Source: Lepidostoma basale (taxonomy: Eukaryota; Arthropoda; Insecta; Trichoptera; Lepidostomatidae). From it: a stretch of DNA of 64,000 nucleotides. Shown here piece after piece: positions 2,021-63,820 of this stretch (the first letter of the stretch is position 1; every line of letters begins with the position of its first letter). The stretch is taken from the NCBI GenBank assembly GCA_022606425.2, contig JAHDVF020000524.1, positions 806,001-870,000 on the forward strand, given 5' to 3'. A program made the position numbers and the translations under genes. The notes beneath the pieces were generated by a model that saw only the letters and a list, made by a program, of their open reading frames with translations, was not told the DNA's origin and searched no databases.

Positions 2021-2290
2021 TAAATAGTCCATTGTTTTGGCCGAAACACTAAGATACTTCAACATTATTACTGTTAATATTTATAACTCTGTTATTTATC
2101 ACATTTTCTTTTTATTTACTGAGTGTCGCGACAGCTGTTTCGCCAACCGATGTTGGCATCATCAGGTCATCAGTTTATTGTAACACCTGATGATGGCAAC
2201 ATAGGTTGGCGAAGCAGCTGTCGCGACACTCGGTAAATAAAAAGTAATTGTGATATATAACAGTGTTTTAAATTTTAACTGTTATATATT
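2020..2290. repeat. HH-1 inverted pair
   Basis: Two HH-1 units face each other. The minus-strand unit (about 2121-2165) is intact: CTGATGA, a GCCAAC/GTTGGC hairpin, GAAA, CAGCTG, TC. The plus-strand unit (about 2186-2230) has GAAG for GAAA and a mismatched hairpin. Both share the flank GCGACACTC and an AT-rich arm reading AATAAAAA. The left edge carries the family flank with GTTTTGGCCGAAACACT. Confidence 0.75.
2121..2166 (-). ncRNA. hammerhead-like motif HH-1
   Basis: Read on the minus strand: CTGATGA box, one extra T, six-base-pair stem II closed by ATCG, GAAA, the self-complementary word CAGCTG as minimal stem III, and TC at the predicted cleavage position. Stem I is weak: only the first pair is convincing. 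An independent copy with the same core lies at 40814. Confidence 0.6.
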
Positions 2291-2320
2291 TTACAGTTTA
2301 TTTTACATCATAGATTCCCA

Positions 2321-2395
2321 ACGAAGCGGTACCACCTCCACCAGGTGCTGAAGCTATCCATGGGGGCGATAGCGGATGCAGTGATAAAAGGGGGC
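2321..2395. other. small GC-rich island
   Basis: About 75 bases of distinctly higher GC inside AT-rich DNA. Short frames are open on both strands and a CATAG acceptor-like site precedes it on the plus strand. It is too short to call an exon, and its left flank belongs to the HH-1 element. Confidence 0.2.
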
Positions 2396-2574
2396 TTAAA
2401 TATTTAAGAACTTAATCGGAAAATACTGTTTTCAACGATAAACATTTCATATTTCTATCTAATAATAAAAGATTATTTTTTCCCATAAAAAACATAAATT
2501 AAAAAAAACAAATGTATAAAATATACGTTTAGCTTATTCAGTTTATTATTAAATATTTTTGATTGGTAATCAAT

Positions 2575-2852
2575 AACTTCTTCTTTTAATAGATCTGATG
2601 ATCTATAACACAGAAATCGTGTCTCGTGTGATGATGAGGTCTATCCGTCTCTCCATCTCTTAGGCGGTCTACCAGGTGGGCGGTGTCTGAAAAGAATTTC
2701 ATAAGCGGCTGTGTATGCGAGTCTATTACTATCCATTCGGGCTACATGGTTCCTCCGCTCCGGTATCTTCTTCTGGAACGATATCCACAATTTCGCAAGT
2801 TGTTATTATGTCCGCGTTGCGAACACGATCTCGGAGAGTTTTTCCGTCAATC
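2575..2852 (-). mobile_element. LINE B 3' fragment
   Basis: Minus-strand 3' end of a non-LTR retrotransposon whose better copies lie at 12886 and 18931. The GHRPPGRPP-type Gly/Arg/Pro motif that ends this RT family is readable with frameshifts, followed by the shared 3' trailer with AGATC words and a short AAG-rich tail at the low-coordinate end. Confidence 0.7.
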
Positions 2853-2929
2853 AATAACTCGATTGACGGAATCAAACATGTGTCGATTGATATCCGAAAA
2901 ATATTCCGTATAACTATTTTATGAAATTA

Positions 2930-3087
2930 TGTCAGCCACGTGAGGAGTCGGGGAAATCGACGTGCGTGCATGTCACATGTTAAGGAAGAGTGAGAAGTAT
3001 GTCAGGAAAGAAAAGTATAGCAGTATATTATTTCTGCTTATCCCTTCGGGGAGACGGTGTGATGGTTAATTAGTTAGTTAGTTAACT
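2930..3087 (+). mobile_element. LINE A 3' fragment (TTAG tail)
   Basis: Short 3' end: the Cys/Arg segment, then GGGGAGACGGTGTGATGG and a run of TTAG repeats. It abuts a second, longer LINE A copy starting at 3088, giving a tandem pair in the same orientation. Confidence 0.75.
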
Positions 3088-3577
3088 GTCCAAAAATTCT
3101 AGAATGGCAGTGCACAATGGTGTTCTTCTAACTACCATTATGTATGGAACTGGCAAAAGGAGGATGAAAGTAGAATAAATGCAGTAGAAATGAGATCTCT
3201 TAGACGAATGTGTAGATACTCTGTGTATGATAGAGTGTCGAATGAAAATATAAGAAGTGAAGCCGGGGTGCGAATGATGGTGTTATGAACAAAATAATGA
3301 AAGGATCATTAAGACGGTTTGGACATATTGAAAGAATAAAGAAAGAATGGTAAAAAAATATATATGTTAACGATGTAAATGGAACCAGAAATAGAGGAAG
3401 ACCGAGGAAAACGTGGCACGATCAAATAAATCAAATATTGAATGTCGGCCATGTGAGAAGTCATAGAAATCGACGAATGTTGAGGAAGCGAGAGAAATAT
3501 GTCAGGAAAGAAAAGTGTGGCAGTCCATTCTTTCTGCCTACCCCTTCGGGGAGACGGCGTGATGGTTAGTTAGTTAA
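3088..3577 (+). mobile_element. LINE A 3' fragment (TTAG tail)
   Basis: Decayed copy beginning at the MAVHNGVL segment of the RT C-terminal region and running to GACGGCGTGATGG plus TTAG repeats and a T run. Several one- and two-base deletions break the frame, for example near 3150 and 3345. It is 5'-truncated, as expected from incomplete reverse transcription of a LINE. Confidence 0.8.
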
Positions 3578-4035
3578 TTTTTTTTTTTTTAGTTAACTAT
3601 TTTTGCTGGCTTCACATACGAGTAGTGTGATAATAATTGATTGACCAAGTATGATTTGTTTTAAATTTAAAAATAAATCCATAACAAGAACTAAAGATAT
3701 GTATGCATATACACGGTGTAACAATTTATATCCTCCCAGTATTACGTTATTACCATAATACAGCAATCCATCATACTTAGATAATAATACACTATTAAAA
3801 CGAGAGGCATGTCTGTAAAGCAAATCGCTTTTGTAATAATGTTTAAATATTGCGCCTCCATTCATTTTTGGAGCTAATTAATTGACACGGCTAATTTACT
3901 GAAACCTACTTCGCTCATTAATACATTGAAAATTTCCTTTTCTAAGGCATTAATTTTTTTATGAATTACCTACATGCTTCGCCTTACTGGGTTGCTGGTG
4001 TTAAAATGTACCTATTAATGATTACGTATGATTGA
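3578..4035. other. AT-rich, nothing convincing
   Basis: A 90-codon minus-strand frame (3593-3865) exists but has AT-driven composition and no family signature. I treat it as chance. Confidence 0.35.
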
Positions 4036-4037
4036 TA

Positions 4038-4255
4038 CGAACGAAAACGTCCATTTTCCAGAATTTCATTATGTTAAAGGGAATGAAATGTTTTACCCTC
4101 CTAAGGCATTATCGAATGTCATTTGATAATGCCTTAAATGGGCAAAATATATCATTCCCATAATATATAATAAAACTTCTAAAAAGCTGACGTTTTTATT
4201 CATATTAATGAAATAATTTGGAGTTTTACATCATTGTTCAAGAAAAACTATAAAC
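4038..4255. repeat. HH-6 inverted pair
   Basis: Foldback element with facing copies of the HH-6 unit. Both arms carry the stem II word TAATGCC(TT). GAAA has drifted to AAAA-type words in both arms, so neither should cleave. The right flank carries the conserved trailer GGAGTTTTACATCATTGTTC seen at most HH-6 loci. Confidence 0.65.
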
Positions 4256-4267
4256 AACACAAATATG

Positions 4268-4400
4268 ATTATTGACAACCTTCATGGCCGTGTTTCAAAT
4301 ACTACGACTGCAACACCAAAGGTCCCGGATTCAAAAACCTACGATTGCAGTGTGATTGTCACACTGTCTTTTGTCTGGTGTAGAATTCACGTGACAATAA
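4268..4400 (+). mobile_element. SINE-A (tRNA-derived), 5' two thirds
   Basis: Decayed tRNA-like head (GACAACCTTCATGGCCGTG region and a worn CGGATTCAAAAACC box B) followed by the SINE-A body with GTGTGATTGTCACACTG and GTGTAGAATTCACGTGAC. The 3' part is missing. Confidence 0.65.
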
Positions 4401-4439
4401 CATTTATTTGTTAAAAATTTATAAACAACTAATCATATG

Positions 4440-4640
4440 CTATTTTTAAGATAATCAAATGATTTTACTGAAATCTCTTGATGGAAGTTCATTTTATATA
4501 ATAATGAAATGAAACGATGTTTTTTAACTACTTTACTCTTTATTTCGACAGCGAGCCTGGCGAAACCGGTCGCTGTCGAAATAAAGACAAAAGTGGAAGT
4601 AGTTAAAAAACATCGTTTTAATTCAATATGCTATTATAAA
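4440..4640. repeat. HH-2 foldback element
   Basis: Inverted repeat with arms roughly 4513-4550 and 4572-4617 closing on a partial HH-2 motif: CCTGGC, GAAA, CCGG, TC at about 4555-4571. The CTGTCGA side is lost. The outer arms carry the family words TTAACTACTT and GTGGAAGTAGTTAAAAAACA. The left flank is the family trailer in reverse. Confidence 0.7.
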
Positions 4641-5030
4641 CTATTATAGTAAAAAAAATATAGAACAAACTTACTTATTTCCTATGGCCAAACAACTCTT
4701 CAATAGTTTAGTCTCCTTGATGATGTTATTCCAAGCTCCTCGATCCTGCGCCTTGTGCTACCAGCAGTCCGATTCGCCCAACCTAGCCAGACCAGCCAAA
4801 AGATTATCCATTAGATAAAACTTGTCAAAGTAAATATAATCCCTCTTAAAGCGCAAATTTTAATAGATATAAATCCCTAGCTTCTATTTATAAACATGAA
4901 TAAATAATTATATAACAACATGAATAAATAAATAAATAATATATAGGTAAAATATTTTAACTTGAATAATAAAAACTGAATAAATTTTATATGTATTTAA
5001 AATAAACCTATTAGAAATTAACAAAATTTC
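4641..5030. other. no recognisable feature
   Basis: Mixed composition. A GC-richer patch near 4735-4800 has no readable family. Confidence 0.35.
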
Positions 5031-5285
5031 TTTGACCGCAAGTGGTGTCACCCCTGAATGTATTTGCATTAATCCGTATTGATTGACCGCAAGTGGGACG
5101 ATAATTGTTCCGACCCCAAATGGCACGACCGCAAGTGGTAAGACACCAAGACGATATATTAAATTCTTAATAATATAAATTATTTTGGTGTTGTGTTAGG
5201 ACATTATTTTCGTTTAATAAAATCGATTGACCGCAAGTGGTACGATAATTGTTCCGACCGCAATTGCACGACCGCAAGTGGCACT
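5031..5285. repeat. cluster of the 12-bp word GACCGCAAGTGG
   Basis: The word occurs exactly at 5034, 5085, 5127, 5229 and 5270, with decayed copies at 5112 and 5256. Two blocks (5081-5141 and 5225-5283) share the same order of words including ACGATAATTGTTCCGACC, so a roughly 58-bp unit was duplicated. The function is unknown; it could be minisatellite debris or a cluster of binding sites. Confidence 0.6.
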
Positions 5286-6060
5286 ATTTCATCGCCCTGC
5301 GAATTCAGCAATATTCAGAATGTGAGAACAACTTATTTAAAAATATCACGTGGGTAATAACATATTAACATTCAGATACCGCGAGCACATAACAATTAGC
5401 TTAAGAATAATATAATTAAGATTCACAGTACTAAGACCTATTTGTTCTCATTAAAACATGGATATAACTGTTATTAAAATTTATGTATGGACGTGTTCAT
5501 ACTCGCGATACCGGCGAACTTTCCAACTTCTCCGGTATGAAGTTGTTTCAACAAGAGCGATTATTTACGAAAGAACAAGCGAAATATTGTTATGAAGATG
5601 AATGCTCGAGGTCAGAGGTCCCCGATCCATTGTGTTATTAGCCTAACTACCTGCAATCAATATTTCCGAAGAAAGTTACATACATTTTGCTTTGTATCGT
5701 ATGCGGGTACTAGTAACATGGAAGTCTTATTACGATAAAGAAATGTATATGTTGTGTCTTGAAAAATGATGTAAAACTCCATATTACTTATTAAATCAAA
5801 TCACTTCGTTTATATTCACCTTTACTTTCTGTTGCAAATAATAATTGAACAATATGGTATTAATTTGTGAAAACACACTTTGTTTAAAACAGAAATAAAA
5901 TTAATAACTAAGTTAATTAGTGTAATTAAATATAATACAGGATACATGAAATAAATGGATAAAACGTTGGATAATAATCATTTGAACAATTGACCACACT
6001 CACAACAACTGACCACACTCATTTAAAAATGTTTAAATATTTATTCTGTACATAATATAA
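5286..6060. other. no recognisable feature
   Basis: AT-rich. A fragment near 5758-5800 resembles the HH-6 trailer (GATGTAAAACTCCATATTA), otherwise unplaced. Confidence 0.35.
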
Positions 6061-6067
6061 AATATAA

Positions 6068-6128
6068 TATTTACCTACTCTGATGAAGGGCTTCTGTGTC
6101 CTGAAACACGTTAGTTTTAAGGTAAATA
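6068..6128 (+). ncRNA. hammerhead ribozyme candidate HH-10
   Basis: The most canonical hammerhead in the window. CTGATGA lies at 6080-6086. Stem II is AGGGC (6087-6091) with GTCCT (6098-6102), five pairs including one G-U, starting directly after the core with no extra base. GAAA is at 6103-6106, a minimal stem III CACG at 6107-6110, and TT at 6111-6112 is the predicted cleavage step. Stem I pairs 6077-6079 with 6113-6115, then after a four-base bulge 6068-6076 with 6120-6128. This is type I topology; cleavage has not been tested and stem III has one A-C mismatch. Confidence 0.7.
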
Positions 6129-6385
6129 AATTGTTTTATTTCACTTTTTCTTTTTTATACTTACTCGTTTATTTAAAAAAAATTACGTAGACATGTTTCG
6201 GACAACCAGTCCTTCTTCAGTGATACATTTTATAAAAATACATTTTAAAAATATTATAAAATTGTTTACATGATCTGACAGATGTATATATAACATCTGA
6301 TTAAAATAAAAAGTAGATAAAAATGAAAAAGTGAAATAAAGCATCATAACAACATAAAGTATGGCGTATATAGAAGAAATAAATA
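6121..6385 (-). repeat. HH-3 element
   Basis: Minus-strand HH-3 unit with its AT-rich body. The far end shares words with the other HH-3 copies (a mirrored TTTGTGTTGTA-type block near 6350). The ribozyme-like core is annotated separately at 6185-6225. Confidence 0.6.
6185..6225 (-). ncRNA. hammerhead-like motif HH-3
   Basis: Minus strand: CTGAAGA (6220-6214), one extra A, stem II GGAC/GTCC closed by TGGTT, GAAA (6199-6196), palindromic CATG (6195-6192), TC (6191-6190). Only the first stem I pair is clear; a 5-nt internal loop then AATTTT-type pairing is possible but AT-rich. The same core recurs at 25000, 52715 and 61740. Confidence 0.6.
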
Positions 6386-6404
6386 AATTGTGTTTAAAAA
6401 ATCA

Positions 6405-6700: not shown

Positions 6701-6737
6701 ATATAAAACAATCTATGAAATATATATACATACTCGT

Positions 6738-7091: not shown

Positions 7092-7106
7092 AGGATAAAC
7101 ACAATA

Positions 7107-7193: not shown

Positions 7194-7224
7194 ACGAATA
7201 CTGGATTTTATTTACCCATTGCGG

Positions 7225-7537: not shown

Positions 7538-7558
7538 TGTAATTTGTATTGTAATTTT

Positions 7559-7582
7559 ATTTATTCAAATATAAACTTACAA
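7559..7582. repeat. target-site duplication, left
   Basis: A 24-bp block starting ATTTATTCAAATAT recurs at 8401-8424 with three mismatches, exactly bracketing the LINE A copy at 7583-8400. Confidence 0.6.
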
Positions 7583-8400
7583 ACTAACTTACCATCACGC
7601 CGTCTCCCCGGAGGGGTAGGCAGAAAGAATGGAACGCCACACTGTTCTGTCCTGACACACGTCTCTCGATTCCTCTACATTCATACATCTTGTCATGCAC
7701 GCACGTCGATTTTTCCGACTCCTCACGTGACCGACATTCAATATTTGATTGATTTGATCGTGCCACGTTTTCCTCGGCCTTACTCTATTTCTAGCTCCGT
7801 TCACGCCGTTTACATACACCTTCTTTACCATTCTGTCTTCACTCATTCTTTCCATGTGTCCAAACCATCTTAATGACCCTTTCCTTATTTTGTTCATAAC
7901 ACTTTCATTCGCACCACATTCACTTCTTATACTTGCATTTGTCACTCTATCATATACAGATTTGCCACACATTCGTCTTAGAGATCTCATTTCTACTGCA
8001 TTTATTCTACTTTCATCCTTCTTTTGCCAGTTCCATGCTTCACTTCCATACATAAGGGTCGGCACAAGAACACCATTGTGCACTGCCATCTTAGCTTTTT
8101 TGGATAGGCTTTTGTTTGCGATGACAACTTAAAGTGCACCATTTATTCTGTTGCCTGCCCCAACCCTTCTTTCAATATCCTTCTCCACCCTCCCATTCTT
8201 TGTAAACATACTTCCTAAATAAACAAATTCATCCACTTGTTCCAGATTTTCACCGTTTACACTAATGTTGCAGACTCTTCTTTTTCGAAAATCATTACCT
8301 TAGACTTATTCACATTCATCATCAAATCGTATCGCTTGCATACCTCATACAAACTAGACACCAGGGCTTGCAGTTCGTGCTCGTTGTCTGCAAGTAGCAC
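7583..8400 (-). mobile_element. LINE A, longest copy here (818 bp, TTAG tail)
   Basis: Minus-strand, 5'-truncated non-LTR retrotransposon. Reading down from 8400 the protein starts just past the YADD catalytic box (VLLADNEHEL), runs through a FVYLGSM-like segment, MYGSEAWNWQKKDES, an FGHMERM segment and the Gly/Arg/Pro motif GRPRKTWHDQINQ-like, ending with a Cys pair segment (RACMTRCMN) and the SAYPSGETA-like C-terminus. About 164 codons (8089-7595) are still open; a one-base slip near 8127 breaks the upstream frame. The 3' end at 7583-7600 is TTAG-type. It carries a 24-bp target duplication. RT/endonuclease activity is impossible from this copy. Confidence 0.85.
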
Positions 8401-9015: not shown

Positions 9016-9523
9016 TTAACTAACTAACTAACTAAGTAACCATCACGCCGTCTCCCCGAAGGGGTAGGCAGAAAGAATGGACTGCCACACTTTTCTTTCC
9101 TGACATATTTCTCTCGCTTCCTCAACATTGATACATCGTGTCATGCACGCGCGTCGATTTCTCTGACTCCTCACATGGCCGACATTCAATATTTGATTTA
9201 TTTGATCGTGCCACGTTTTCCTCGGTCTTCCTCTATTTCTGGTTCCATTTACATAATTAACATATAATTTTTTTACCATTCTTTCTTCATTCATTCTTTC
9301 AATATGTCCAAACCATCTTAATGATCCTTTCATTATTTTGGTCATGACACCATCATTCGCACCGCATTCACTTCTTATATTTTCATTCGGCACTCTATCA
9401 TACACAGAGTATCCACACATTCTTCTAAGAGATCTCATTTCAACTGCATTTATTCTACTTTCATCCTTCTTTTGCCAGTTCCATGCTTCGCTTCCATACA
9501 TAAGGGTCGGTAGAAGAATACCA
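9016..9523 (-). mobile_element. LINE A 3' fragment, 152-codon frame intact
   Basis: Minus-strand copy with its TTAG tail at 9016-9040 and an uninterrupted frame (9501-9043). The frame covers MYGSEAWNWQKKDES, a SLRRMCGYSVYDRV region, a FGHIERMNEERM segment, GRPRKTWHDQINQ and the terminal Cys region. The open frame and close match to the copy at 57300 suggest fairly recent insertion. It is 5'-truncated at the start of the MYGSEAW segment. Confidence 0.85.
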
Positions 9524-10396: not shown

Positions 10397-10560
10397 GCCT
10401 ATAAATTATATAAATTATGTCAGTTTAAGAATGCCCTCGCAAGGCGAAACAAATTTGTCACAATTGATATAATTAATTTAAATTAAATCGAAGTAAAACC
10501 ACTAAACAATCGTGTTTTCTATTATAAATTAATAATTAAGTTTTACAAAACCAATACCTC
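10397..10560 (+). repeat. HH-8 element
   Basis: Carries an HH-8 core at 10425-10459: TTAAGAA, T, a GCC/GGC hairpin with loop CTCGCAA, GAAA, the self-complementary CAAATTTG, TC. The trailer GTTTTACAAAACCAATACCTC matches a second copy at 59280-59470. G8 of the hammerhead core is A in both copies. Confidence 0.55.
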
Positions 10561-23490: not shown

Positions 23491-23610
23491 TATAGACCAG
23501 TCTGTCGATGCCAGCGAGCCTGGCGAAACCGGTCGCTGTCTAAATAAAGACAAAAGTGGAAGTAGTTAAAAAACATCGTTTTATTTAATTATTAAATGAA
23601 GAATAGTTTA
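23491..23610 (+). repeat. HH-2 element with intact motif order
   Basis: Single plus-strand unit. Right of the ribozyme-like core is the family arm CAAAAGTGGAAGTAGTTAAA and ACATCGTTTTATTTAATTAT. The core is listed at 23497-23540. Confidence 0.7.
23497..23540 (+). ncRNA. hammerhead-like motif HH-2
   Basis: CTGTCGA (23502-23508; position 6 is T where hammerheads have A), one extra T, stem II GCCAG/CTGGC (23510-23514 with 23520-23524), GAAA (23525-23528), self-complementary CCGG (23529-23532), TC (23533-23534). Stem I: 23498-23501 (CAGT) pairs with 23535-23538 (GCTG), four pairs including one G-U. The A6 change is shared by all copies and would be expected to weaken cleavage. Confidence 0.55.
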
Positions 23611-24439: not shown

Positions 24440-24655
24440 CTCGTACATATTCCATTGTTTTGGAGGAAACACTTTAAACATTATTAACTGTTAAAATAAG
24501 AAAAACTATGCAGTTGATTGTAAGACCTGACGATGCTTATATCTGTTGGCGAAACAGCTGTCGCGACAAAATATATTCAATTGTGATATTTATAACAGAG
24601 TTTCTATTTATTTATTTAAACAGTAAATAATTTATAGACAGTAATTGGGTTCAAA
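24440..24655 (+). repeat. HH-1 element
   Basis: Leader (TTGTTTTGGAGGAAACACTT), then a core at 24521-24567: CTGACGA, T, a GCTTAT/GTTGGC hairpin with mismatches, GAAA, CAGCTG, TC, GCGACA. One plus-strand unit. Confidence 0.65.
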
Positions 24656-24790: not shown

Positions 24791-25180
24791 GTTCGCCATA
24801 TTTTGTGTTGTAGATGCTTTATTTCTCTTTTTCTTTTGTATATTCAACACTTAAATTAATTGGAAAGCAACGGGAAACTACCACATCAAAAAGGCCCAAG
24901 TGGCATCCCAAGAACCAGCAAAGATATCAATAAACTTTGCTGCAAACCAATCCCAGGATTGAAACTTAAGAATAATAGATTAAAAAAAATTTACAAAGAC
25001 ATGTTTCGGACAACCAGTCCTTCTTCAGTGATTTATATTATAAAGATCTTTATACTTTGTATCACTGAACTGGTTGTCCGAAACATGTCTATGTAATTTT
25101 TTTTAAATGTAGGTAAGTGTTGTATATACAAAGTATAATATATAAAAAAGAAAAAGAGAAATATAATACAATGTTTAAAA
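24791..25180. repeat. HH-3 inverted pair
   Basis: Minus unit 24996-25032 is complete: CTGAAGA, A, GGAC/GTCC with TGGTT loop, GAAA, CATG, TC. The plus unit 25060-25095 lacks six bases of stem II (CTGAAC then TGGTTGTCC). The arms extend to the mirrored body word GTTGTA with AAAAAGAAAAAGAGAAA. The spacer is about 27 bp. Confidence 0.7.
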
Positions 25181-25984: not shown

Positions 25985-26095
25985 ATACCCTATACCTGAT
26001 GATGTCAACATAGGTTGACGAAACAGCTCTCGCGAAAAATAAAAAATATATAATATAAAAAATTGTGATATATAAACAGCGTTATGTGTTTTAAC
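25985..26095 (+). repeat. HH-1 element
   Basis: Core at 25996-26032: CTGATGA, T, a full six-pair stem II (GTCAAC/GTTGAC with ATAG loop), GAAA, CAGCTC in place of CAGCTG, TC, GCGA. The two changed stem II pairs relative to the 40814 copy are compensatory (C-G to T-A). Confidence 0.65.
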
Positions 26096-28319: not shown

Positions 28320-28612
28320 GAAATTAAAATAACTTTATTTAATCCAGAAATTATTAAAAAAATATTAAAAAACGCGACATTTTTCGGAGGATACGTCCAT
28401 CTTCAGGTGTAAAAATTCTTGTCAAATGTATATTCTTTCTTAAATAAATAATCTTAGGTAAAAATATAATTATTATTTATGTACTAAAAATACAACATAA
28501 TTATATTATATTTTTACGCTTGAAGATAGAGGCATCCTCCAAAAATGTCGTGTTTTTTTTAAAAATTAGTGGATTAATCAAAGATATTTTAATTTCCTAA
28601 AAAATTAAACTT
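28320..28612. repeat. HH-9 inverted pair
   Basis: Minus unit 28368-28413: CTGAAGA, T, GGA/TCC hairpin, GAAA, AATG, TC, GCG. Plus unit 28516-28555: TTGAAGA, T, GAGG/CCTC hairpin, AAAA, ATG, TC, GTG. In the plus unit stem I pairs ACGC (28516-28519) with GTGT (28550-28553). The outer arms carry mirrored TTAAAATA and TTTAATCCA words. Confidence 0.6.
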
Positions 28613-31523: not shown

Positions 31524-32510
31524 TTGTATGTTTGTAGAGTCAAGATAGGAGGAGAGCTCACAGATGAATTCATGGTATCACAGGGCCTCAAACAAGGTGA
31601 TAGTTTAGCCCCAACACTTTTTAACCTGAGTTTGGAATATGCCATAAGGAAAACTTACCACCTTAACACGAATCCCAACACATACTTTCATAGCAGCCAG
31701 ATCATAGGATATGCAGACGACCTTAACATTGTAGGAAGATCCCTAGCAGCCATACACGAAGTATTTGAGCCTTTAGAGACAGCAGCCAAGGAGGTGGGTT
31801 TAGAGATAAACGAAGAAAAGACACAAATAATGAAACAAACCAGGAATGCAACCCATAACTCAAGGCGAACCATCAGATTCAAGGACAGATACAACTTTAA
31901 GATGGTAGAGGACTTCACTTACCTGGGTTCGTCTATAACAAAAGAAAACGAAGATCACAAGGAAATCGAAAGAAGAATCACGATTGGTAACAAAACATTC
32001 TTCTCTCTACTACCAGCGCTCAAATCAAGAAACGTACACTGGAAAACCAAAATCACCCTGTATAAAACAATCATCCGAACAGTAGTGACCTATGGGTGTG
32101 AGGCGTGGACAATGACAGCGAAATCTGCAGAGCGACTGGATACTTTTGAGAGAAGGGTGCTGCGCAGAATTCTGGGGCCTGTGAATGACGGTGAAGGCTG
32201 GAGAGTGCGGCATAATGACGAGCTGTACAATATTTACAAAGCTCCCAGTCTCTCCACACAGGTCAGACTGAATAGACTGAGATGGGCCGGTCACGTGCAG
32301 AGGATGCCGTCATCGCGAACCCCAAAAAGATTGCTGGAGTGGCACCCAGGTGGTAGAAGACCAATTGGACGACCAAGGCTGCGATGGGAGGATGAAGTTG
32401 GGAGAGATGGAACAAGATTGTTAAGAGTGTCAGATTGGAGGGTCGAAGCGGAGGACAGGAGGAGTTGGAGGCGAAGAATACTGGAGGCTAAGGCTCGAAA
32501 TGGGCTGTAG
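31524..32510 (+). mobile_element. non-LTR retrotransposon RT, C-terminal half (328-codon open frame)
   Basis: Longest open frame in the window. The first codon is TTG directly after a stop, so this is a 5'-truncated frame and not a true start. Order: GLKQGDSLAPTLFNL (RT motif B region, residues about 22-36), IGYADDLNIVGRS (catalytic YADD, about 65-77), VEDFTYLGSSIT (thumb region), VTYGCEAWTMT, a FERRVLRRILGP stretch, LRWAGHVQRM and GRRPIGRPRLRWEDEV near the end; stop at 32508-32510. The endonuclease and fingers domains are missing. The intact frame over 980 bp argues for a recent insertion. Clade is RTE/CR1-like by motif style but not fixed. No poly-A or simple-repeat tail is obvious after the stop. 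Confidence 0.85.
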
Positions 32511-33099: not shown

Positions 33100-33310
33100 A
33101 GCGAACTGGGTCTTTAATAACTATGATGCTTTAAAATTATAAACTGTTAAATAAAAAAAAATGTTTTATGTATCACAATTGAATTTTTATTTTTCTCGAC
33201 ATATTTCGAAGGGTTATCATCGGGAGAACGATAAAAACTAAAGTATAGGCCTTCGAAACATGTCGAGAAAAATAAACTCAAAAGTGGAAAAACAGTGTTT
33301 TGATTCATAA
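33100..33310. repeat. HH-7 inverted pair
   Basis: Left unit (minus, core 33193-33228) and a right half unit (plus, 33250-33275: CCTTCGAAACATGTCGAGAA) face each other. The outer flanks carry HH-1-like words (GTATCACAATTGAATTTTTA) and AAAAGTGGAAAAACAGTG. Confidence 0.65.
33193..33228 (-). ncRNA. hammerhead-like motif HH-7
   Basis: Minus strand: CCGATGA (33223-33217) as core, one extra T, a very short stem II region AACCCTT, GAAA (33207-33204), TATG (33203-33200), TC (33199-33198). Stem I is perfect over five pairs: TTCTC (33228-33224) with GAGAA (33197-33193). U4 is C here and stem II is minimal, so activity is doubtful, but the arrangement is right. Confidence 0.5.
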
Positions 33311-35419: not shown

Positions 35420-35615
35420 GTAGTCCATTGTTTTGGCCGAAACACTATGATACTTTAACATTTTATAACTGTTAATGCAAAAACGTTGTTTTACATCACA
35501 ATTGTATTTATTTAATGACAGTTCTTTCATCAACCAATGTTGACATCATCAAAAAATAAATACAATTGTGATATAAAACAAAGTTTTTGCATTAATAGTT
35601 ATAAAACACTTTGTA
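35420..35615. repeat. HH-1 inverted element
   Basis: Leader with GTTTTGGCCGAAACACTATG, then a minus-strand worn core at 35518-35553 (TTGATGA, GTCAAC/GTTGAT hairpin, GAAA, AACTGTC), then a mirrored leader. The arms ACAATTGTATTTATT and AATAAATACAATTGTGATAT face each other. Confidence 0.6.
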
Positions 35616-35619
35616 TTTA

Positions 35620-35830
35620 TTGTGTCTTGAACAATGAGTAAAACTCTATATTAATTAATTAATACTAATGAAAACGTTTGTTTTCTTGAAATCTTATTAT
35701 ATTTTATGTGAATAACGTGTCTCGCCTGTCTAAGATATTAACATTTGATAATGCCTTAGACAGGCGAAATATGCCATTCACATAAAATATAATAAAATTC
35801 TAGAAAACAGACGTTTTATTCGTATTCAAT
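35620..35830. repeat. HH-6 inverted pair, well preserved
   Basis: Arms 35661-35737 and about 35750-35827. The plus unit core at 35745-35775: TTGATAA, T, GCCT/AGGC hairpin with loop TAGAC, GAAA, TATG, CC. The minus unit mirrors it with GAGACACGTTATTC. The element ends in CGTTTTATTCGTATT on the right and its mirror on the left. Confidence 0.7.
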
Positions 35831-40519: not shown

Positions 40520-40745
40520 AACAATTAATATTAATGAAAACGTCTGTCTTTTAGGAGTTTTAATATATTTTAGATGGAATGTCATGTTTCCCTCTTCTAA
40601 GGCATTTAATAATGCCTTAGAAGGGTGAAATATGTCATACCATTCAAAATATAATTAAACTCGTAGATGACAGACGTTTTTATTTATATAAATTATTTAC
40701 TATGGAACTTTACACCATTGTTCAAGAAATAATAAATTCAAAGAA
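40520..40745. repeat. HH-6 inverted pair, well preserved
   Basis: Arms 40528-40600 and 40612-40684. Plus core: TTAATAA, T, GCCTT/AGGGT hairpin with AGA loop, GAAA, TATG, TC. The minus arm has CATG and GAAA-type words. The trailer ATGGAACTTTACACCATTGT follows. Confidence 0.7.
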
Positions 40746-40799: not shown

Positions 40800-40925
40800 C
40801 TGTTTTTTTATTGTAACACCTGATGATGCCAACATCGGTTGGCGAAACAGCTGTCGCGACACTCTCAGTGAATAAAAATAAATTGTGATATTATAACAGT
40901 AATTTAAATTTTAACAGTAACATTT
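40800..40925 (+). repeat. HH-1 element, intact core
   Basis: Single plus-strand unit; AT arms TTTTTTATT (40803-40812) and AATAAAAATAAA (40873-40884) could pair outside the core. Core listed at 40814-40865. Confidence 0.7.
40814..40865 (+). ncRNA. hammerhead-like motif HH-1
   Basis: CTGATGA (40820-40826), one extra T, stem II GCCAAC/GTTGGC (40828-40833 with 40838-40843), GAAA (40844-40847), CAGCTG (40848-40853), TC (40854-40855). Stem I near the junction has G-C, then a C-A mismatch, then G-C. All invariant core bases are present. Confidence 0.65.
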
Positions 40926-41065
40926 TCACTTAGTATAAACCACTTTATTTGAGTTAGTAGCGCCTACCGGTTTCACTCTGTAGCGAGCTTCCTTAGGGCT
41001 ATACAAAAAATTAGTTTGTCAGTTTGTGTATAGGCCTTAGGAAGCTAATTCATAAAAAAAATGGT
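40926..41065. repeat. HH-4 inverted element
   Basis: Minus core 40957-41000: CTAAGGA (G5 changed), extra A, GCTC/GAGT hairpin, GAAA, CCGG, TA. Stem I pairs GCC with GGC next to the core. The partner arm at 41030-41050 keeps only TAGGCCTTAGGAAGCTAATTC. Confidence 0.55.
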
Positions 41066-42679: not shown

Positions 42680-43160
42680 AAAATAACTAACTAACCATCA
42701 CGCCGTCTCCCCGAAGGGTTTGGCAGAAATAATGGACTGACACACTTTTCTTTCCTGACATATTTCTCTCGCTTCCTCAACATTCATACTTCGTGTCATG
42801 CACGTGTGACGATTTCTCTGACTCTTCCCATGGCCGACATTCAATATTTGATTTATTTGATTGTGCCACGTCTTCCTCTATTTCTGGTTCTATTTACATC
42901 GTTAACATATAATTTTTTTACCATTCTTTCTTCTATCATTCATTCCATATGTCCAAAACATCTTGATGATCCTTTCATTATTTTGTTCATGACACCATCA
43001 TTGGCACCGCATTCACTTCTTATATTTTCATTCGACACTCTATCATACACAGAGTATGCACACATTCGTCTAAGAGATCTCATTTATTCTACTTTCATCA
43101 TTCTTCTGCCAGTTCCATGCTTCGCTTTCATTCATAAAGGTTATATCCATACATTTATAT
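42680..43160 (-). mobile_element. LINE A 3' fragment (TTAG tail)
   Basis: Minus strand, tail mirrored at 42684-42694. A small deletion near 42865 removes part of the GRPRKTWH region and another near 43082 the INAVEM region. It sits between 65-88 bp direct repeats. Confidence 0.8.
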
Positions 43161-50005: not shown

Positions 50006-50694
50006 CTTCTTATTTTTCTTTCGGTGCCGGGTCAGGTCTTCCCAACGTTGGCGATCAGTACTGCGCCACTTGGAACAGGTTCTGAACTCTTGTTATTCCT
50101 ATCCACTCTTTGATGTTCTGCAGCCAGGACAGCTGCCTTCTACCAACTTCCCGATGTTCCTCCACTTTACTCATTAATATTAGTCGAAGAAGGTGGTATT
50201 TTTATCCCCTTAGCACATGATCCAAATATGACACCATTCTAACTTTCACAGTTGACAACAGCTCTCTATTGGCTCTGGCTCTCTGCAGTACGTCTGCATT
50301 ATTGACCCTATCGGTCCACGGTATACGGAGCATTCTGTCAATACCGCAGAATGCTCCGTATACCGTGGACCGATAGGGTCAGGAATACAGGCGTACTGCA
50401 GAGAGCCAGAGCCAATAGAGAGCTGTTGTCAAGTGTGAAAATTAGAAAGGTCTCATATTTGGGTCATGTGCTAAAAGGCAAAAAATACCACCTCCTTCAA
50501 CTGATATTAATGGGTATTAAGTGGAGGAACGTCGGGGAGTTGGTAAAAGGCACATTTCCTGGCTGCAGAACATCAAATAGTGGACAGGAATAACAAGAGT
50601 TCAGATCCTGTTCCAAGTGGCGCAGGATAGAGATGCCTTTGCTGTAGGGATCACCAACGTTGGGGGACCTGACACGGCACCGAAATAAGAAGAT
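50006..50694. mobile_element. LINE C head-to-head palindrome
   Basis: Minus-strand copy (50006-50337) and plus-strand copy (50347-50694) of the same RT C-terminal segment meet at a 9-bp spacer. Each arm ends outward with the protein end (VGITNVGG) and an A/G tail (AATAAGAAGAT). Arms encode RIPWTDRVRNTGVLQRARAN, a SYLGHVLKGKKYHLLQLI region and a worn Gly/Arg region. The arms differ by scattered changes and about 16 bp in length, so the palindrome is not brand new. Confidence 0.8.
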
Positions 50695-51149: not shown

Positions 51150-51305
51150 AACATTAAACTTTCATATGAAGAACTTAACTTGTGGTGTGACATTATTAAA
51201 TAAATAAAAGTACACATGTAAAATTTATACATTTATACCACTATATTCGTTATTAACACCAACCGGTTTCGCTCCCGCCGGAGCTTCGTCAGAGTAACAC
51301 AGAAT
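51150..51305 (-). repeat. HH-4 element, intact core
   Basis: Mirrored trailer (AAGAACTTAACTTGTGGTGTG at 51170) then the core at 51257-51296 on the minus strand; the inverted partner is absent. Confidence 0.7.
51257..51296 (-). ncRNA. hammerhead-like motif HH-4
   Basis: CTGACGA (51292-51286), one extra A, perfect stem II GCTCC/GGAGC (51284-51280 with 51275-51271, loop GGCG), GAAA (51270-51267), CCGG (51266-51263), TT (51262-51261). Stem I pairs TACT (51296-51293) with GGTG (51260-51257), four pairs including two G-U. All invariant core bases are present. Confidence 0.7.
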
Positions 51306-51540
51306 ATACTCTTCATGATATGATGTTGCTTCATAAAATAATTCACTTTAAAATGGACAATTCTGAGCTTCTCAGCAAATTTTCATTCAATACCCCATGT
51401 CTTGCACGGGGACCCACCGCGAGCCAAGTTTTTTATCTTTCTGTTTATCGCACTAACTACGCTCAGAGCGCGGCATTGTGTTGAATTTGTGACAACTACA
51501 ATAAGGATTTTGGAGACATTTACAATGGTATTTTATATAA
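51306..51540. other. no recognisable feature
   Basis: Mixed DNA. Confidence 0.4.
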
Positions 51541-51545
51541 TAATT

Positions 51546-51940
51546 AAATAAAACGCTGTTTTTTAACTACTTCCACTTTTGTCTTTATTTAGACAGCGAC
51601 CGGTTTCGCCAGGCTCGCTGGCATCGACAGACTGGTAACACTATTGTAAACTTAGTCCTTTATATACATACAGATCAGGGGTGGTAAACATGATTCTATA
51701 CAAAAATAATCTTCAAATATTTATGTAAAGTTTTTCTGAATTTAACTCTTAAAAACTTTACATAAATATTTGAAGATTATTTTTGTATGGAATCATGTTT
51801 ACCACCCCTGATCTGTATGTATATAAAGGACTAAGTTTACAATAGTGTTACCAGTCTGTCGATGCCAGCGAGCCTGGCGAAACCGGTCGCTGTCTAAATA
51901 AAGACAAAAGTGGAAGTAGTTAAAAAACATAGTTTTATTT
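51546..51940. repeat. HH-2 near-perfect palindrome, 190-bp arms
   Basis: Arms 51546-51735 and 51751-51940 are complementary throughout with no indel and about three mismatches; the loop is 15 bp. Each arm holds a full HH-2 core (minus 51590-51633, plus 51850-51893) plus 110 bp of element body towards the centre, including CCCCTGATCTGTATG. It looks like two element copies joined head to head. Confidence 0.85.
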
Positions 51941-52250
51941 AATTATTATTTAAAATGAACTTCCATCAAGAGATTTCAGCAAAATCATTTGGGTATTTTA
52001 TATATTATATTACTTTTTTATGTATCTTAATTTCATATTTTATTTCCAGTACTATTAGTATTTTAACTCTTAATATTATATCTAGCCTCATTTTTTCTTA
52101 GTTTTACTTCAATCTCGTTTCACATTTTCATTTGATAACTGTTAACTATTATTTTAGATTTGTGGTAGCATGTAATTGGCCTTACTTTAATTATTCTAAA
52201 TGGTTTTTGTAAATATATATGTTATTGATATCGCTGTATGTTAAAAAAAA
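51941..52250. other. HH-2 trailer then AT-rich DNA
   Basis: The first 60 bp (AACTTCCATCAAGAGATTTC, AAAATCATTTG) continue the HH-2 family trailer seen at 19800 and in mirror at 4440; the rest is unassigned. Confidence 0.5.
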
Positions 52251-58160: not shown

Positions 58161-58167
58161 CACTCTC

Positions 58168-59275: not shown

Positions 59276-59279
59276 CTTG

Positions 59280-59475
59280 GATTTAATTTATATAAATTAT
59301 ATATAAGGCAGTTTGAGAATGCCCTCGCAAGGCAAAACAAATTTGTCACATTTAAATTATTTAAATAAATTGAATCCAAGTAAAACAACTAAACAATCGT
59401 GGTTACTATTATTAAGTAATATGGAGTTTTACAAATCTAATACCTCAACCATCAATACGTTTTTTTAAAGTTATC
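59280..59475 (+). repeat. HH-8 element
   Basis: Core 59313-59347: TTGAGAA, T, GCC/GGC hairpin with CTCGCAA loop, AAAA for GAAA, CAAATTTG, TC. Flanking arms ATTTAATTTATATAAATTAT mirror the right flank partly. Trailer with ACCTCAACCATCAATAC matches 10560. Confidence 0.55.
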
Positions 59476-59496
59476 ATTATTATTGTTTAATAATGT

Positions 59497-59605
59497 AATT
59501 AACTAACTAACTAACCATCACGCTGTCTCCCCGAAAGGGTAGGCAGAAAGAATGGACTGTCACACTTTTACTGATGCGGCACTTCATCCTTTATTTTTCG
59601 CCCTT
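59497..59605 (-). mobile_element. SINE-B with LINE A 3' tail
   Basis: Same arrangement as 52255: mirrored TTAG tail, LINE A end, then TGATGCGGCACTTCATCC and TTTTTCGCCC. Confidence 0.65.
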
Positions 59606-59684
59606 TTTTTAAATAATGTATATAATGTATATTCTCTTATTTTTAATAATGTATATTTGTATATATCTTCTTCTCTTCTTTTTC

Positions 59685-60025
59685 TTTTAGTAGATCTGAC
59701 GATCTATCATTTTTCTTGGGATGATAAGGTCCAACTGTACCTAGATTTTTAAGGTGATCTTCTGGGTGGACGGGTTTGGAGAGGATTTATATGTTTATGC
59801 GAGTCTTTCACCATCTATTCTGGCTACATGGTATCTTCTTCAGTATCTTCTTCTGGATCTATTCCACCTAACAATATCCTTCTATATCCCAAGATTGTCT
59901 TATATTTGCATCGCAGACATGACTTCGAAGAATTTTTTCAGTAAGGAATCTTAGGACCTTCATCTCAGATGTTCTTAGCAGACCCTTGCATAGACCGTAC
60001 AGCATACATCAGGATAGGTCGCACG
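59685..60025 (-). mobile_element. LINE B 3' fragment, worn
   Basis: Mirrored trailer (TAGATCTGACGATCTATC) and coding words with many substitutions; tail at 59668-59690 is CTTCTTCTCTTCTTTTTC. Confidence 0.65.
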
Positions 60026-60272
60026 CATTTGTAATATGTATGTTTATAATAATTCACGTGTACTGGTACACTATCTTGTTGGAATTATTGTGAATAATTG
60101 TCACAGTAAGGCTTCACCAAGTTTGATAGATGCAATAAATAAGTAAGCTAGAACAAATATGAAATTCATCACAAAAATTTGAAATATTTTTTTTGTTTTC
60201 CATATTGCCAACCTTCGCAGAGAAGACGGTAACTAGAGAAAAATAAGTGCTATGAATATAATACGAGACGAT

Positions 60273-60475
60273 AATTAATACGAATGGAGACGTCTGTTTT
60301 CTAGAAGTTATATTATAATTTATGGTAATTAATTATCAAATTTCGCTTGTCTAAAGCATTATCAAAATGATACGACAGACAAAACATGTCATTTTCGTGA
60401 ATTATAATAAAACTTCTAGAAAACATACGTTTTTATTTGTATTATTATTTAAAATGGAGTTTTACATGTTCGAGA
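60273..60475. repeat. HH-6 inverted pair
   Basis: Arms about 60273-60350 and 60375-60455 with mirrored CGTCTGTTTTCTAGAAGTTA and AACTTCTAGAAAACATACG. The plus core is decayed: ACGACAGACAAAACATGTCA keeps CATG-TC but has lost the CTGANGA box. Confidence 0.6.
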
Positions 60476-60574
60476 AACGGTTTAAAATTGAATCACGGAA
60501 TCAATAAGCGATAGCTTTTAATTTAGCAAAATGGTCTGGCAAAATGATCTGGCAAAATGGTCTGGCAAAATGTG

Positions 60575-60970
60575 GCAAAACTGTTTATGATAGAGTGCCA
60601 AATGCAAGTATAAGAAGTGAATGTGGTGCGAATGAAAGTGTTATGAATAAAAAAAATAGAAGGGTCAAAAATATGGTTTGGACAAATGAAAGGAATGAGT
60701 GAAGACAGAATGGTAAAGAAGGTATATGTAAACGGCGTGAACGGAGCTAGACATAGAGGAAGGCCGAAGAAAACGTGGTACTATCAAATCAATTAAATAT
60801 TGAATGTCGGTCACGTGAGGAGTCGGAGAAATCGACGTGCGTGCATGACAAGATGCATGAATATAGAGGAAGCGAGAGAAGTATGTCAGGACAAAACAAT
60901 GTACGTTCCATTCTTTCTGCCTACCCCTCCGGAGAGACGGCGTGATGATTAGTTAGTTAGTTAGTTAAAA
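60575..60970 (+). mobile_element. LINE A 3' fragment (TTAG tail)
   Basis: Begins at TVYDRVPNASIRSECG and runs to GAGAGACGGCGTGATGATTAG with TTAG repeats; small indels (e.g. near 60650) shift the frame. Just before it, GTCTGGCAAAATG occurs three times in tandem (60533-60575). Confidence 0.8.
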
Positions 60971-61365
60971 TGGTCTTATTCTCTTTTGCCTAGTGAGTAA
61001 AGTACACTACCATAGCGAAAAATCCTGGTAAAATCCATATCATATTTTCGATTGATATCACAAATGTGATCAGTAACACGTTCAACAAATATATTTCCCA
61101 TAGTTATTCACAAGTGCTTACATGATAAATTGAAAAAAGCCTAATTAATCCAAACGTTTATAAAAATGCCTCTATATTAATTATTATGAGTACAGCCAAC
61201 TCCATAAGGCAACAGGTAACTCATATAAAAGGATTTTCTACGAATCACTGTTGTAGCAGAAAAACTGTGGTCATTATTTCATTGGCTAATGAGACATACG
61301 CTTTACAAGAACTGTTCGAGACACAACAGGGACAGCACGTGAAATTTGATGGATGCGCCACACTA
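60971..61365. other. no recognised family
   Basis: A 61-codon plus-strand frame (61186-61371; words HIKGFSTNHCCSRKT) has no clear family. Confidence 0.3.
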
Positions 61366-61368
61366 CAA

Positions 61369-61440
61369 TGAAACGCATGGTGAAGAAAGAATGCTTAGAA
61401 AGTATACATTAACGATGTTAATGGAGTAGGGAGTCGTGGA
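61369..61440 (+). mobile_element. LINE A scrap (TTG subfamily)
   Basis: AAAGTATACATTAACGATGT and GGAGTAGGGAGTCGTGGA: the YINDVNGVRSR-like part only. Confidence 0.5.
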
Positions 61441-61681
61441 ATAAGTTTAAATTCACATTGATTATGATATGTTATAATTTCCGATCTGATAATGATTTTT
61501 TTATTTATTAAATCGCTGTTTAAACAATAAGAAACGTTAACATATTCAAAAAAATAATATTGTTTTTTGAAATTTCTTTATAAATAATTAAAATAAATGT
61601 TAGTGTCTTCGACCAGTTTTGGCAGCTCGCTGACACAAAGACACATGAGTTGTTTTTAACTAAAAATGTAATATTTCTCTT

Positions 61682-61895
61682 TTTCTTTTTTATGTTCTTT
61701 GTAAATACAACACTAACATTAAAAAAAAAATTACATAGACATTTTTCGGACAACCAGTCCTTCAGTGATACATATTATAAAGGTACATATTTAAAATATT
61801 ATAAAATTGTTTTCATGATCTGACAGATGTTATAAATTTTTATAACATCTGTCAGATCATGTTAACAATTTTATAATATTTTAAATATGTATATA
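61682..61895. repeat. HH-3 element with long arms
   Basis: Minus core 61733-61768: CTGAAGG (3 bases deleted), GGAC/GTCC hairpin, GAAA, AATG, TC. To its right a separate inverted repeat about 61785-61890 has arms TCATGATCTGACAGATGTTA / TAACATCTGTCAGATCATG around an A/T loop. Confidence 0.65.
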
Positions 61896-62640
61896 TGAGG
61901 AACACCAGAATAATAGAGATGTGTGAGGCTGGGGATATTATAAGATGGACTGGTGTTCACATGTCCAAATAACGGATACTACCAGATTCCACTTTATTAC
62001 AATGGGAATAATTATAATCAGTCTCACGGGACTCGTCCTCATAAAAGATAAAACAAACAAACAAAACCATCACGCCGTTTCCCCGCAGGGGTAGGCAGAG
62101 AGAATGGACCGCCACACTACTCTATCCTGGCACACCTCTCTAGCTTCCTCCACATTCATACATCGAGTCATACACGCACGTCGATTTTTCCGGCTTCTGA
62201 CATGACCAACTTTTAATATTTGATTAATTTGGTCATGCCATGTTTCCCTCGGTCTACCTCGACTCCTTACTCCATTTACATTGTTAACGTATACTTTTTT
62301 AACCATTCTTTCTTCACCCATGCGCTCCATATGTCCGAACCAACGAAGCGAACCTTTCATAATTTTGTTCATAATACCTTCTTTCGCTCTACACTCCTTC
62401 CTAATATCAGCATTTGAGATTCTGTCGTACATCGTTCTACCACACATACGTCTTAGGGACCTCATCTCTACCGCATTTATTCTGCTCTCATCTTTCTTCT
62501 GCCAGTTCCATGCTTCGCTTCCATACATAAGGATAAACTCAAATAAGATAAACTCAAATATGGAAGGACAGCTTTAAATTCACCTCAGAGGAGGAGCAAC
62601 CCTCTCGATAACAACAGGTCTATAGCAAGATATAGATATA
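61893..62640 (+). mobile_element. LINE B 3' fragment interrupted by LINE A
   Basis: LINE B runs from 61893 (GAGGAACACCAGAATAATAG) to about 62050 (GGACTCGTCCTCATAAAAGA), is broken by the LINE A copy at 62053-62533, and resumes at about 62548 (ATATGGAAGGACAGCTTT) to the AGCAACCCTCTC trailer at 62610. Compared with the uninterrupted copy at 13240-13340 the join is exact apart from a duplicated AAATAAGATAAACTC-like target. Confidence 0.7.
62053..62533 (-). mobile_element. LINE A 3' fragment, 152-codon frame intact (TTG-type)
   Basis: Minus strand, tail mirrored as AAACAAACAAACAAAACC. The frame 62528-62070 is uninterrupted: MYGSEAWNWQKKDES, MRSLRRMCGRTMYDRIS, SLRWFGHMERMGEERM, NGVRSRGRPRETWHDQ, RACMTRCMNVEEAREVCQ, SAYPCGETA. 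It sits inside LINE B and is younger than that copy. Confidence 0.85.
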
Positions 62641-62885
62641 GAATAAGAAAAATACGGTTATTTATTAATTAATTAAAATTGTTACGTAAAATTAAGAGCG
62701 TGTGCCACTGGGCTCATGTATTTCTCGTTAACTGGTGTAATTGCAGTGCGAGTTGAACCGAAATAATAATTAGGAACTTCTTGTGGCAGGAAGGAGAAGA
62801 ACATTTAACGTGATTGCAGGAGATTGAATCATTTCGTAGATCTTTCTGGAATAAGTGGTCATGGTCAAGGGTGGCTCATGAACAT
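62641..62885. other. no recognisable feature
   Basis: Mixed DNA. Confidence 0.4.
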
Positions 62886-62889
62886 TTAA

Positions 62890-63000
62890 AATATGTATTT
62901 GTTGTTTCTTGAACAATGATGTTAATATCCATATTAAATAATAAAAACGAACGAAATATTCTGTTATCCAGAAGTTTTATTTGAAATACTTTGAAATTTA
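62890..63000 (-). repeat. HH-6 half element
   Basis: Mirrored trailer (CTTGAACAATGATGTTAATA) and ATCCAGAAGTTTTATTTGAA. Confidence 0.45.
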
Positions 63001-63169
63001 AAAAATAAAAAAATGGTAAATATTATTAACAGCCAATTTATTCTTATGTTCGAACGCGTTTTCCCTACTCCAACTTAAATCGTAATTAGTTTAAATTCAC
63101 CCCCACCCTTAGACATAACTCCATTACATTTTAGTATATATGACGTTTCTGTTTCAATTTATTGTGGAT

Positions 63170-63220
63170 ATTTGTACATTGAAAAAGGTTGGGTCACAAC
63201 CAAATCATGTCTGTACAACG
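63170..63220 (+). ncRNA. hammerhead-like motif HH-5, best stem I
   Basis: TTGAAAA (63179-63185), extra A, perfect stem II GGTTG/CAACC (63187-63191 with 63197-63201), AAAT where GAAA is expected, CATG (63206-63209), TC (63210-63211). Stem I is perfect over five pairs: GTACA (63174-63178) with TGTAC (63212-63216). Core changes at C3, G8 and G12 make activity unlikely. Confidence 0.5.
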
Positions 63221-63264
63221 CCATAAATTTATCAAAAAAAATTTAAATATTCAAAATATGTATT

Positions 63265-63375
63265 TTATTTTATAGGAACGATGCATTTGATAACGTCTTA
63301 ACAAAGTGAAACATGCCATTCTCACCAAATAAAATAAAATTTCTAGATAACAAACTATTTTTATCGTATTGTTTT
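63265..63375 (+). repeat. HH-6 right half
   Basis: Core 63291-63322: TTGATAA, C, GTCTT...AAGT hairpin, GAAA, CATG, CC; followed by AAATTTCTAGATAACAAACT. Confidence 0.55.
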
Positions 63376-63573
63376 TTTGAAATAAGCATGTTTCACTAGG
63401 GGGTGCAAGTTTAAAAAAATAAAAGTTTGATATTTTTTTTTGAAAACGATGTATTATATATTTTTTTTTCTAATATTACAAACATTCTTCCTCAATGTAG
63501 GATATTGAAAATTAAAGTTTAAATTGTAATTGAATAATATCAAAAAATAAATAAAAATTTAATCCACAAAATA

Positions 63574-63820
63574 ATAAACACCACTTTATTTGGTAGCACC
63601 AACCGGTTTCGCTCCCTTCGTCAGGGTGAGAGAGTAAACTGTTTACTCTCTAACATTCAATGTACTCTCTAACAGTTTACCCACTCACCCTGACGAAGGG
63701 AGCGAAACCGATTGGTGTTACCAAATAAAGTGGTGTTTATACAAATTACTAAAATTGTATTTTGATTTTATTTAACAATGTCACAACACAAATAAGTGCT
63801 CAATACGAAAGTTGACATGG
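63574..63820. repeat. HH-4 inverted pair
   Basis: Arms 63574-63643 and 63671-63740, nearly complementary; spacer 27 bp. Plus core 63686-63717: CTGACGA, deleted stem II (AGGGAGC only), GAAA, CCGA, TT, with stem I CACC/GGTG perfect. The minus arm has CCGG. The trailer with CACAACACAAATAAGTGCTC follows at 63780. Confidence 0.75.

Follow-up and report, generated by a model that had tools for sequence, protein, structure and literature searches.

Small repeats with hammerhead ribozyme motifs in a 64,000-nucleotide stretch of the genome of the caddisfly Lepidostoma basale (contig JAHDVF020000524.1, positions 806,001 to 870,000; the whole stretch is referred to below as the window) are probably, for the most part, 5'-truncated 3'-terminal pieces (pseudo-long terminal repeats, pLTRs) of several families of Penelope-like elements (PLEs). 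Taken together with this identity of the repeat ends, it is probable that their head-to-head pairs arise when two RNAs serve as templates and both target strands as primers, a reading preferred here over the published model of self-priming. The anatomy of such insertions is seen directly in two young families of the genome and in four pairs of the window, and from it we infer the priming on both strands, the two RNA templates, the order of the steps and the joining. In the proposed mechanism, the PLE endonuclease would cut the two target strands approximately 10-16 bp apart, and each target 3' end would prime reverse transcription on a separate RNA that is uncut at the ribozyme. One complementary DNA (cDNA) would be primed from the tail site and the other from the short site; each would halt at its own 5' point, and the two cDNA ends would then be joined in the middle.

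The nature of the carriers is most evident in one genomic copy (L047), reached via GIY-YIG matches, which holds a 758-codon stop-to-stop frame with reverse transcriptase (RT) and GIY-YIG domains (RVT_1, 51.5 bits; GIY-YIG, 23.6 bits with a cut-off of 22.6). On either side of this frame lie inverted copies of a family with window members at 23502, 51614, 51872 and 4555, and since the first codons of the frame lie in the inverted arm, the copy is itself 5'-truncated. Among the 20 GIY-YIG loci that were fetched, 18 are PLE loci, and at 13 of these a hammerhead of one of two sequence types lies on the same strand, 135-457 nt past the first in-frame stop (in L059, counted among the 13, it is decayed). 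The other two loci are UvrC genes with UvrC RNase H, UVR and GIY-YIG domains (L048 on C102, a 1.64-Mb contig, and L049 on C729, a 0.25-Mb contig), and because of them some contigs look bacterial, i.e., derived from a symbiont or a contaminant. A third type of PLE hammerhead is found in L033, and PLE coding fragments adjoin further types in L007, L015, L018, L026 and L037. An open reading frame (ORF)-bearing partner is linked in this way to the window types 51614/23502/4555, 28406, 6080 and 6220 and, via L007, to 51292; for the CAGCTG, CAAATTTG, 33193 and 40996 types, for which no PLE frame was reached, an autonomous PLE partner is a presumption. Of 1343 homologues, the best 120 were considered, and those with a name belong to a moth (Phthorimaea), a butterfly (Euphydryas), beetles (Diabrotica) and a locust (Schistocerca); comparison with solved structures gave three weak RT matches. 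An earlier note on this DNA had read the window as a zoo of non-autonomous retroelements, which is not supported: where families could be followed, they are the 3' ends of PLEs encoding RT and GIY-YIG, with copies that are 5'-truncated and often head-to-head.

Four head-to-head pairs of the window, each with a single PLE tail, are the following:

1988-2286, CAGCTG type: left arm 2066-2167 on the minus strand (core 2165), right arm 2185-2286 on the plus strand (core 2187); tail (ATGTTGAAG..., MLKYLSVSAKTMDY) on the left only, reaching approximately 2000, its absence on the right being judged by eye.
4451-4629, short pair belonging to the L047 family of PLEs: left arm 4451-4554, minus, with the tail at 4451-4493; right arm 4549-4629, plus, without a tail. 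The left arm begins a few bases from the predicted cleavage site, a position blurred by six shared bases.
51527-52004, PLE insertion without an ORF: left arm 51530-51742, minus; right arm 51744-51956, plus; tail 51954-51991 on the right only; 13-bp target-site duplication (TSD) at 51527-51539 and 51992-52004; both arms match the ends of L047, the copy with an ORF, at 96-97% identity.
63574-63813: cores 63624, minus, and 63690, plus; tail 63777-63813 on the right only.

The same arrangement prevails in the genome. Among the first 100 hammerheads listed, neighbours less than 1 kb apart diverge in 11 cases, converge in three and share a strand in two. Of the first 30 hammerhead copies listed, 20 have the 3' region again in inverted form upstream (over at least 47 nt in 13 of them; two insertions were counted from both arms), whereas control placements around the same 30 copies gave six direct upstream, five inverted downstream and five direct downstream. 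In each of the two young families, 35 loci are represented by the 40 near-full matches with the highest scores. The first family has a second arm at 17 loci, always diverging, and the second has a diverging second arm at 16, so that 33 of the 34 loci with a further arm in the two families have it diverging. These counts come from a search that misses short or distant arms (the left arm of L047 itself was unlisted), and they leave out C1221 (a converging 67% piece) and C224 (a 28-nt piece) in the first family and C712 (a 73% piece and a 29-nt piece) and two older C1009 arms in the second. Arm starts are scattered along the query and 3' ends are fixed; the arms are truncated independently.

Exactly one arm carries a PLE tail in all 31 pairs whose outer ends could be compared (20, a further ten by eye, and C610), a set that covers 17 of 17 first-family pairs, 13 of 16 second-family pairs and L047, which stands outside the 16; at C312 and C1252 the short arm alone was read, and C712 was left out of the tail check. 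The short arms at C610, C1252 and C312 had been taken to terminate prematurely, in one case at the cleavage site, an idea that was dropped as the fetched sequence continues to the tail. No convincing link between tail and arm length was apparent by eye (approximately 15 short vs. seven long). Judged by likeness, the tail appears to encode the start of the ORF: in the window it reads MNFHQEISAKSF, which by eye resembles the homologue N-termini MEFHQ.. and MNFRK... The flanks of the pairs match as TSDs in all 28 scored cases (one by eye). In a first set of 18, all have a TSD of 10-15 nt (mean 12.7), as compared with a mean of 5.3 in 306 mismatched controls, two of which reach at least 10; in a second set, scored without a control, TSDs of 11-16 nt were found by script in nine of ten and by eye in the tenth. 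L047 and L080, which lie in simple repeats, were set aside from this scoring. With one direct TSD around it, each pair looks like one insertion.

These regularities bear on self-priming, in which one cDNA or antisense template folds back and is copied, so that both arms derive from a single molecule, as proposed for Penelope elements of rotifers in the available portion of PMC3846280. Such a process would be compatible with the head-to-head order and with the private origin of most arm differences, and it draws support from the foldback or palindromic junctions in L033, L074, L076, L077, L087, L089 and L090. Nonetheless, copying one cDNA to its start would not leave one arm tail-less in 31 of 31 pairs, and a copied cDNA should continue into inverted target DNA, whereas here both sides end at element sites within one direct TSD. 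Moreover, although the arms of one insertion mostly agree, three pairs (L079, L080 and L082) have arms with different alleles that recur at other loci. The short arm of L080 carries two linked alleles common to L083 and L055, and its long arm has the alternative alleles; in L079 and L082, the arms differ at two shared sites each (L066 is the same locus as L079 and lends no independent support). In the first family, the arms of L073 differ at one site and those of L068 by a two-base gap. The one-tail rule and the arms with different alleles thus speak against both arms being copied from one cDNA, and self-priming is considered unlikely. Direct joins are present in L068, L070, L071 (with one extra base) and L078; the junctions of L069, L072, L073 and L075 were assigned to no class.

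Several observations weigh against priming from two RNAs or limit its reach. The differences between the arms of a pair are mostly private (16 of 19 for the first family and 28 of 36 for the second), and the evidence of different alleles rests on few sites, at which gene conversion or recurrent mutation could also have acted. Foldback or templated-repeat junctions include L091 in addition to L033, L074, L076, L077, L089 and L090, and L087 forms an almost perfect palindrome of 1.5 kb; such structures are expected from self-priming. L089 (G000:C1306) and L090 (G000:C77) share an odd junction repeat, GGAGTTGATAAGGAGTTGATAAG, with different flanks and TSDs; the double structure may have moved as such, or both may come from one odd RNA. 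An older pair at C1009 (91%) converges with the main copy, and at 18 of 35 and 19 of 35 loci no diverging second arm was seen. The close examination covers two families only, and the window lacks a PLE frame, such frames occurring in genome copies only.

The last point would also suit the view, close to that of the earlier note, that the repeats are non-autonomous, retrozyme-like elements spreading as ribozyme-made circular RNAs. Hammerhead cores above chance are in line with that view, and internal initiation on a circle would likewise leave the cleavage site uncut. As described in the available parts of PMC7229834 and PMC4918200, retrozymes resemble the present elements in having a hammerhead in a small repeat. 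They differ in that here ORF-bearing partners share the same ends and the pairs are inverted rather than direct: no ORF-less tandem array of 150-450 nt, the mark of a retrozyme, was found in the window, and no direct tandem pair was seen in the locus listings of the two young families. Spread as circular RNA is accordingly regarded as improbable.

That the hammerhead-like skeleton is real is evident from counts in the window and in the genome. A strict descriptor (exact CTGANGA, stem II of at least three pairs, GAAA, a self-complementary A..U word and H) found six units in the window (2165, 6220, 25028 and 51292 on the minus strand; 24527 and 40820 on the plus strand), against a mean of 0.05 and a maximum of one in 40 dinucleotide shuffles, the control that the earlier note had called for. 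A seventh (6080, plus) appears once the two central stem III bases are left free, and the CUGANGA and GAAA core is present in seven window units. Allowing one core mismatch gave 12 matches vs. 1.25 per shuffle (maximum 4), and allowing both relaxations 17 vs. 3.7 (maximum 9). Approximately half of the 12 places singled out in the earlier note are complete or nearly so, namely 2121 (the unit at 2165), 6080, 6185 (6220), 24996 (25028), 40820 and 51257 (51292), and the remainder have at least one defect: the box is CTGTCGA at 23502, stem III contains CAGCTC at 25996, 28368 (28406, minus) has GAAAAATGTC, one arm at 33193 has CCGATGA and the other no box, stem II is almost absent at 63690, and TTAAGAA stands where the box is expected at 10425. 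Stem I is readable in the minimum free energy (MFE) folds of 6080 and 51292 and weak or rearranged in other units. An Rfam search of the window found no hammerhead, neither at the gathering score nor at E<=10.

In the 768.8 Mb of genome searched, a loose pattern, CTGANGAN{6,20}GAAACNNGTH, with stem II and inner stem III free, matched 32,631 times, as compared with 79 for the reversed pattern, i.e., approximately one per 24 kb; at least four matches lie in the window (6080, 6220, 25028 and 51292), which is ordinary for hammerhead density in this genome. Stems were checked in the first 100 places listed, comprising 70 distinct sequences. In the latter, stem II pairs at 3.46 of 4 positions with a one-base offset and at 1.76 without it, vs. 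2.31 for shuffled partners (maximum 2.64 in 1000 shufflings); a palindromic stem III occurs in 88 of the 100 places, where 25 would be expected if it were free. The single base between core and stem II, which the earlier note had allowed for, thus holds up: it is A in 51, T in 18 and G in one of the distinct sequences (A/U in 69 of 70). One paper reportedly deals with a viroid hammerhead that has an additional nucleotide in its core. Of 94,533 candidates in the genome, 73 were scored, and one of these (38.7 bits) reached the gathering score of RF00163 (Hammerhead_1); this sole match, C844:789780-789896, contains CGAAACACGTGTCG and lies within a head-to-head pair. The earlier note was thus right to suppose Penelope-like minimal type I hammerheads whose stem III is palindromic and of the dimer type: they occur far above chance, their cleavage being predicted. 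Chance, or ordinary foldback or miniature inverted-repeat transposable element (MITE)-type inverted repeats, might be invoked in a window with 76 inverted-repeat pairs, but these genome and shuffle counts, the reversed pattern and the coding arms, together with 5' truncation and tails, led to the rejection of both chance and DNA foldback elements as explanations with hardly any probability.

The further hammerhead-like features of the window are as follows:

6068-6128, plus: hammerhead-like unit, core CTGATGA at 6080, stem III ACACGT with non-palindromic inner bases; MFE fold with a long stem I; 81% likeness to the L033 PLE 3' end over 48 nt.
6187-6220, minus: hammerhead, CTGAAGA / GGAC..GTCC / ACATGT, of the type of L037, whose spacer matches PLE coding sequence.
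10425-10470, plus: degenerate unit retaining stem II, GAAA and CAAATTTG-TC, without the CTGANGA box.
23496-23600, plus: single 3' end from the L047 family of PLEs, with core CTGTCGA and without a tail.
24527-24562, plus: hammerhead of the CAGCTG type, from the descriptor scan.
24995-25095: head-to-head pair, hammerhead on the minus strand (core 25028) and decayed copy on the plus strand (core 25065); tail too decayed to score.
25996-26030, plus: CAGCTG-type hammerhead with a single stem III change.
28370-28406, minus: unit with core CTGAAGATGGA, resembling PLE loci L050, L058, L060, L063 and L065.
33187-33275: head-to-head pair of decayed units; 3' sequences diverge after AAATAAA; tail too decayed to score.
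40820-40860, plus: well-preserved hammerhead of the CAGCTG type.
40962-40996, minus: unit CTAAGGA..ACCGGT, resembling L040 and L042.
51155-51300, minus: hammerhead CTGACGA / GCTCC..GGAGC / ACCGGT, core 51292, tail 51155-51194.

The arms at 33187-33275 have a common hammerhead-like core and different 3' regions and are possibly one insertion from RNAs of two families. Among the other repeats of the window, an abundant one ends in GGAGACGGCGTGATGGTTAGTTAG and has GTTA-rich tails (many places, e.g., 3491-3580, 7576-7657, 9024-9114 and 42680-42769); its frame at 7598-8128 matched no Pfam family. A long palindrome at 50061-50625 (arms of 170 and 107 nt, 90-92%) belongs to another family and by eye is not hammerhead-like. 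A second, near-palindromic AT-rich family (4030-4209, 35615-35818, 40520-40743 and 60251-60477) is related to pieces of L035, L039 and L046, the word GACCGCAAGTGG recurs at short spacing in 5030-5290, and a 328-aa open frame at 31524-32510 (RVT_1, 58 bits) is a piece of another retrotransposon.

In LINE-1 twin priming, both target strands are primed, products are 5'-truncated and joined, and a different part of the one RNA supplies the inverted piece. The elements described here resemble it in the proposed priming on both strands, in 5' truncation and in the proposed joining, but both of their arms hold the same 3' end, so that two templates are needed, or one copied twice. Small dimeric variants of PLE hammerheads with a diminished stem III, which cleave as dimers, are reportedly the subject of work by Luense, Weinberg and Breaker (2017); as compared with those variants, the genomic context is here resolved to head-to-head PLE insertions, and cleavage is a prediction. 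PLE hammerheads, inverted pLTRs, the head-to-head order and optional tails are already in print, as are dispersed minimal hammerheads of unknown role (in the available part of PMC7761336). Penelope/Poseidon PLEs are alike in their RT and GIY-YIG ORF, pLTR, AT-rich targets, TSD, inverted pLTRs and an optional tail of 30-40 nt into the ORF start (PMC11167929 and the accessible text of PMC3846280), and for rotifer Pen families the latter calls the head-to-head order the most frequent. Features that differ from these PLEs are the additional A/U that follows the core, the presence of exactly one tail in each pair and a young family with CTGTCGA; in addition, the hammerhead here follows the ORF and lies upstream of the start codon, whereas the ORF of the anole element PAc starts in stem II (PMC11167929). 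The PAc protein cleaves and extends both target strands in vitro from two start sites that bound the tail, which the reading of two templates fits; no difference between top and bottom strand was reported, whereas each insertion here shows one of each (PMC11167929). The one-tail-per-insertion rule and the two-allele arms were not found in the literature searched, most subscription papers being outside its reach.

The part played by the ribozyme itself may also need to be reconsidered. All 40 arms examined run through the predicted cleavage site, and therefore the copied RNA was uncut there, or rejoined; this is in line with the normal insertion of ribozyme mutants of the anole PLE (PMC11167929). 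In the L047 family, the box is CTGTCGA in the window and in the 10 genome copies shown, and the palindrome CCGG is kept. The change to CTGTCGA would be expected to impair cutting. A palindrome is kept across families (ACATGT, ACCGGT, ACTAGT and ACAGCTGT), and MFE dimer folds give mixed evidence: two L033 molecules pair through ACAUGU, and other families fold otherwise or partly. A tentative proposal, for which the odds are rather low, is that the palindromic stem III serves as a dimer-linkage signal: two PLE RNAs paired via their hammerheads would be carried by a dimeric RT-endonuclease and would prime both target strands from two mutually exclusive start sites, so that every insertion would be a head-to-head double copy bearing exactly one tail. 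Cutting of the RNA would then be secondary, which fits both the young family with CTGTCGA that keeps CCGG and the templates uncut at that site.

Both the completion of PLE insertion and the function of minimal hammerheads have been stated as open questions (PMC11167929 and, in its available part, PMC7761336). A genome with tens of thousands of such motifs, in which the best copies of families are 94-100% identical, provides simple rules, open to counting, by which two-template insertion can be told from self-priming, and suggests that the ribozyme palindrome may have a function other than cutting.

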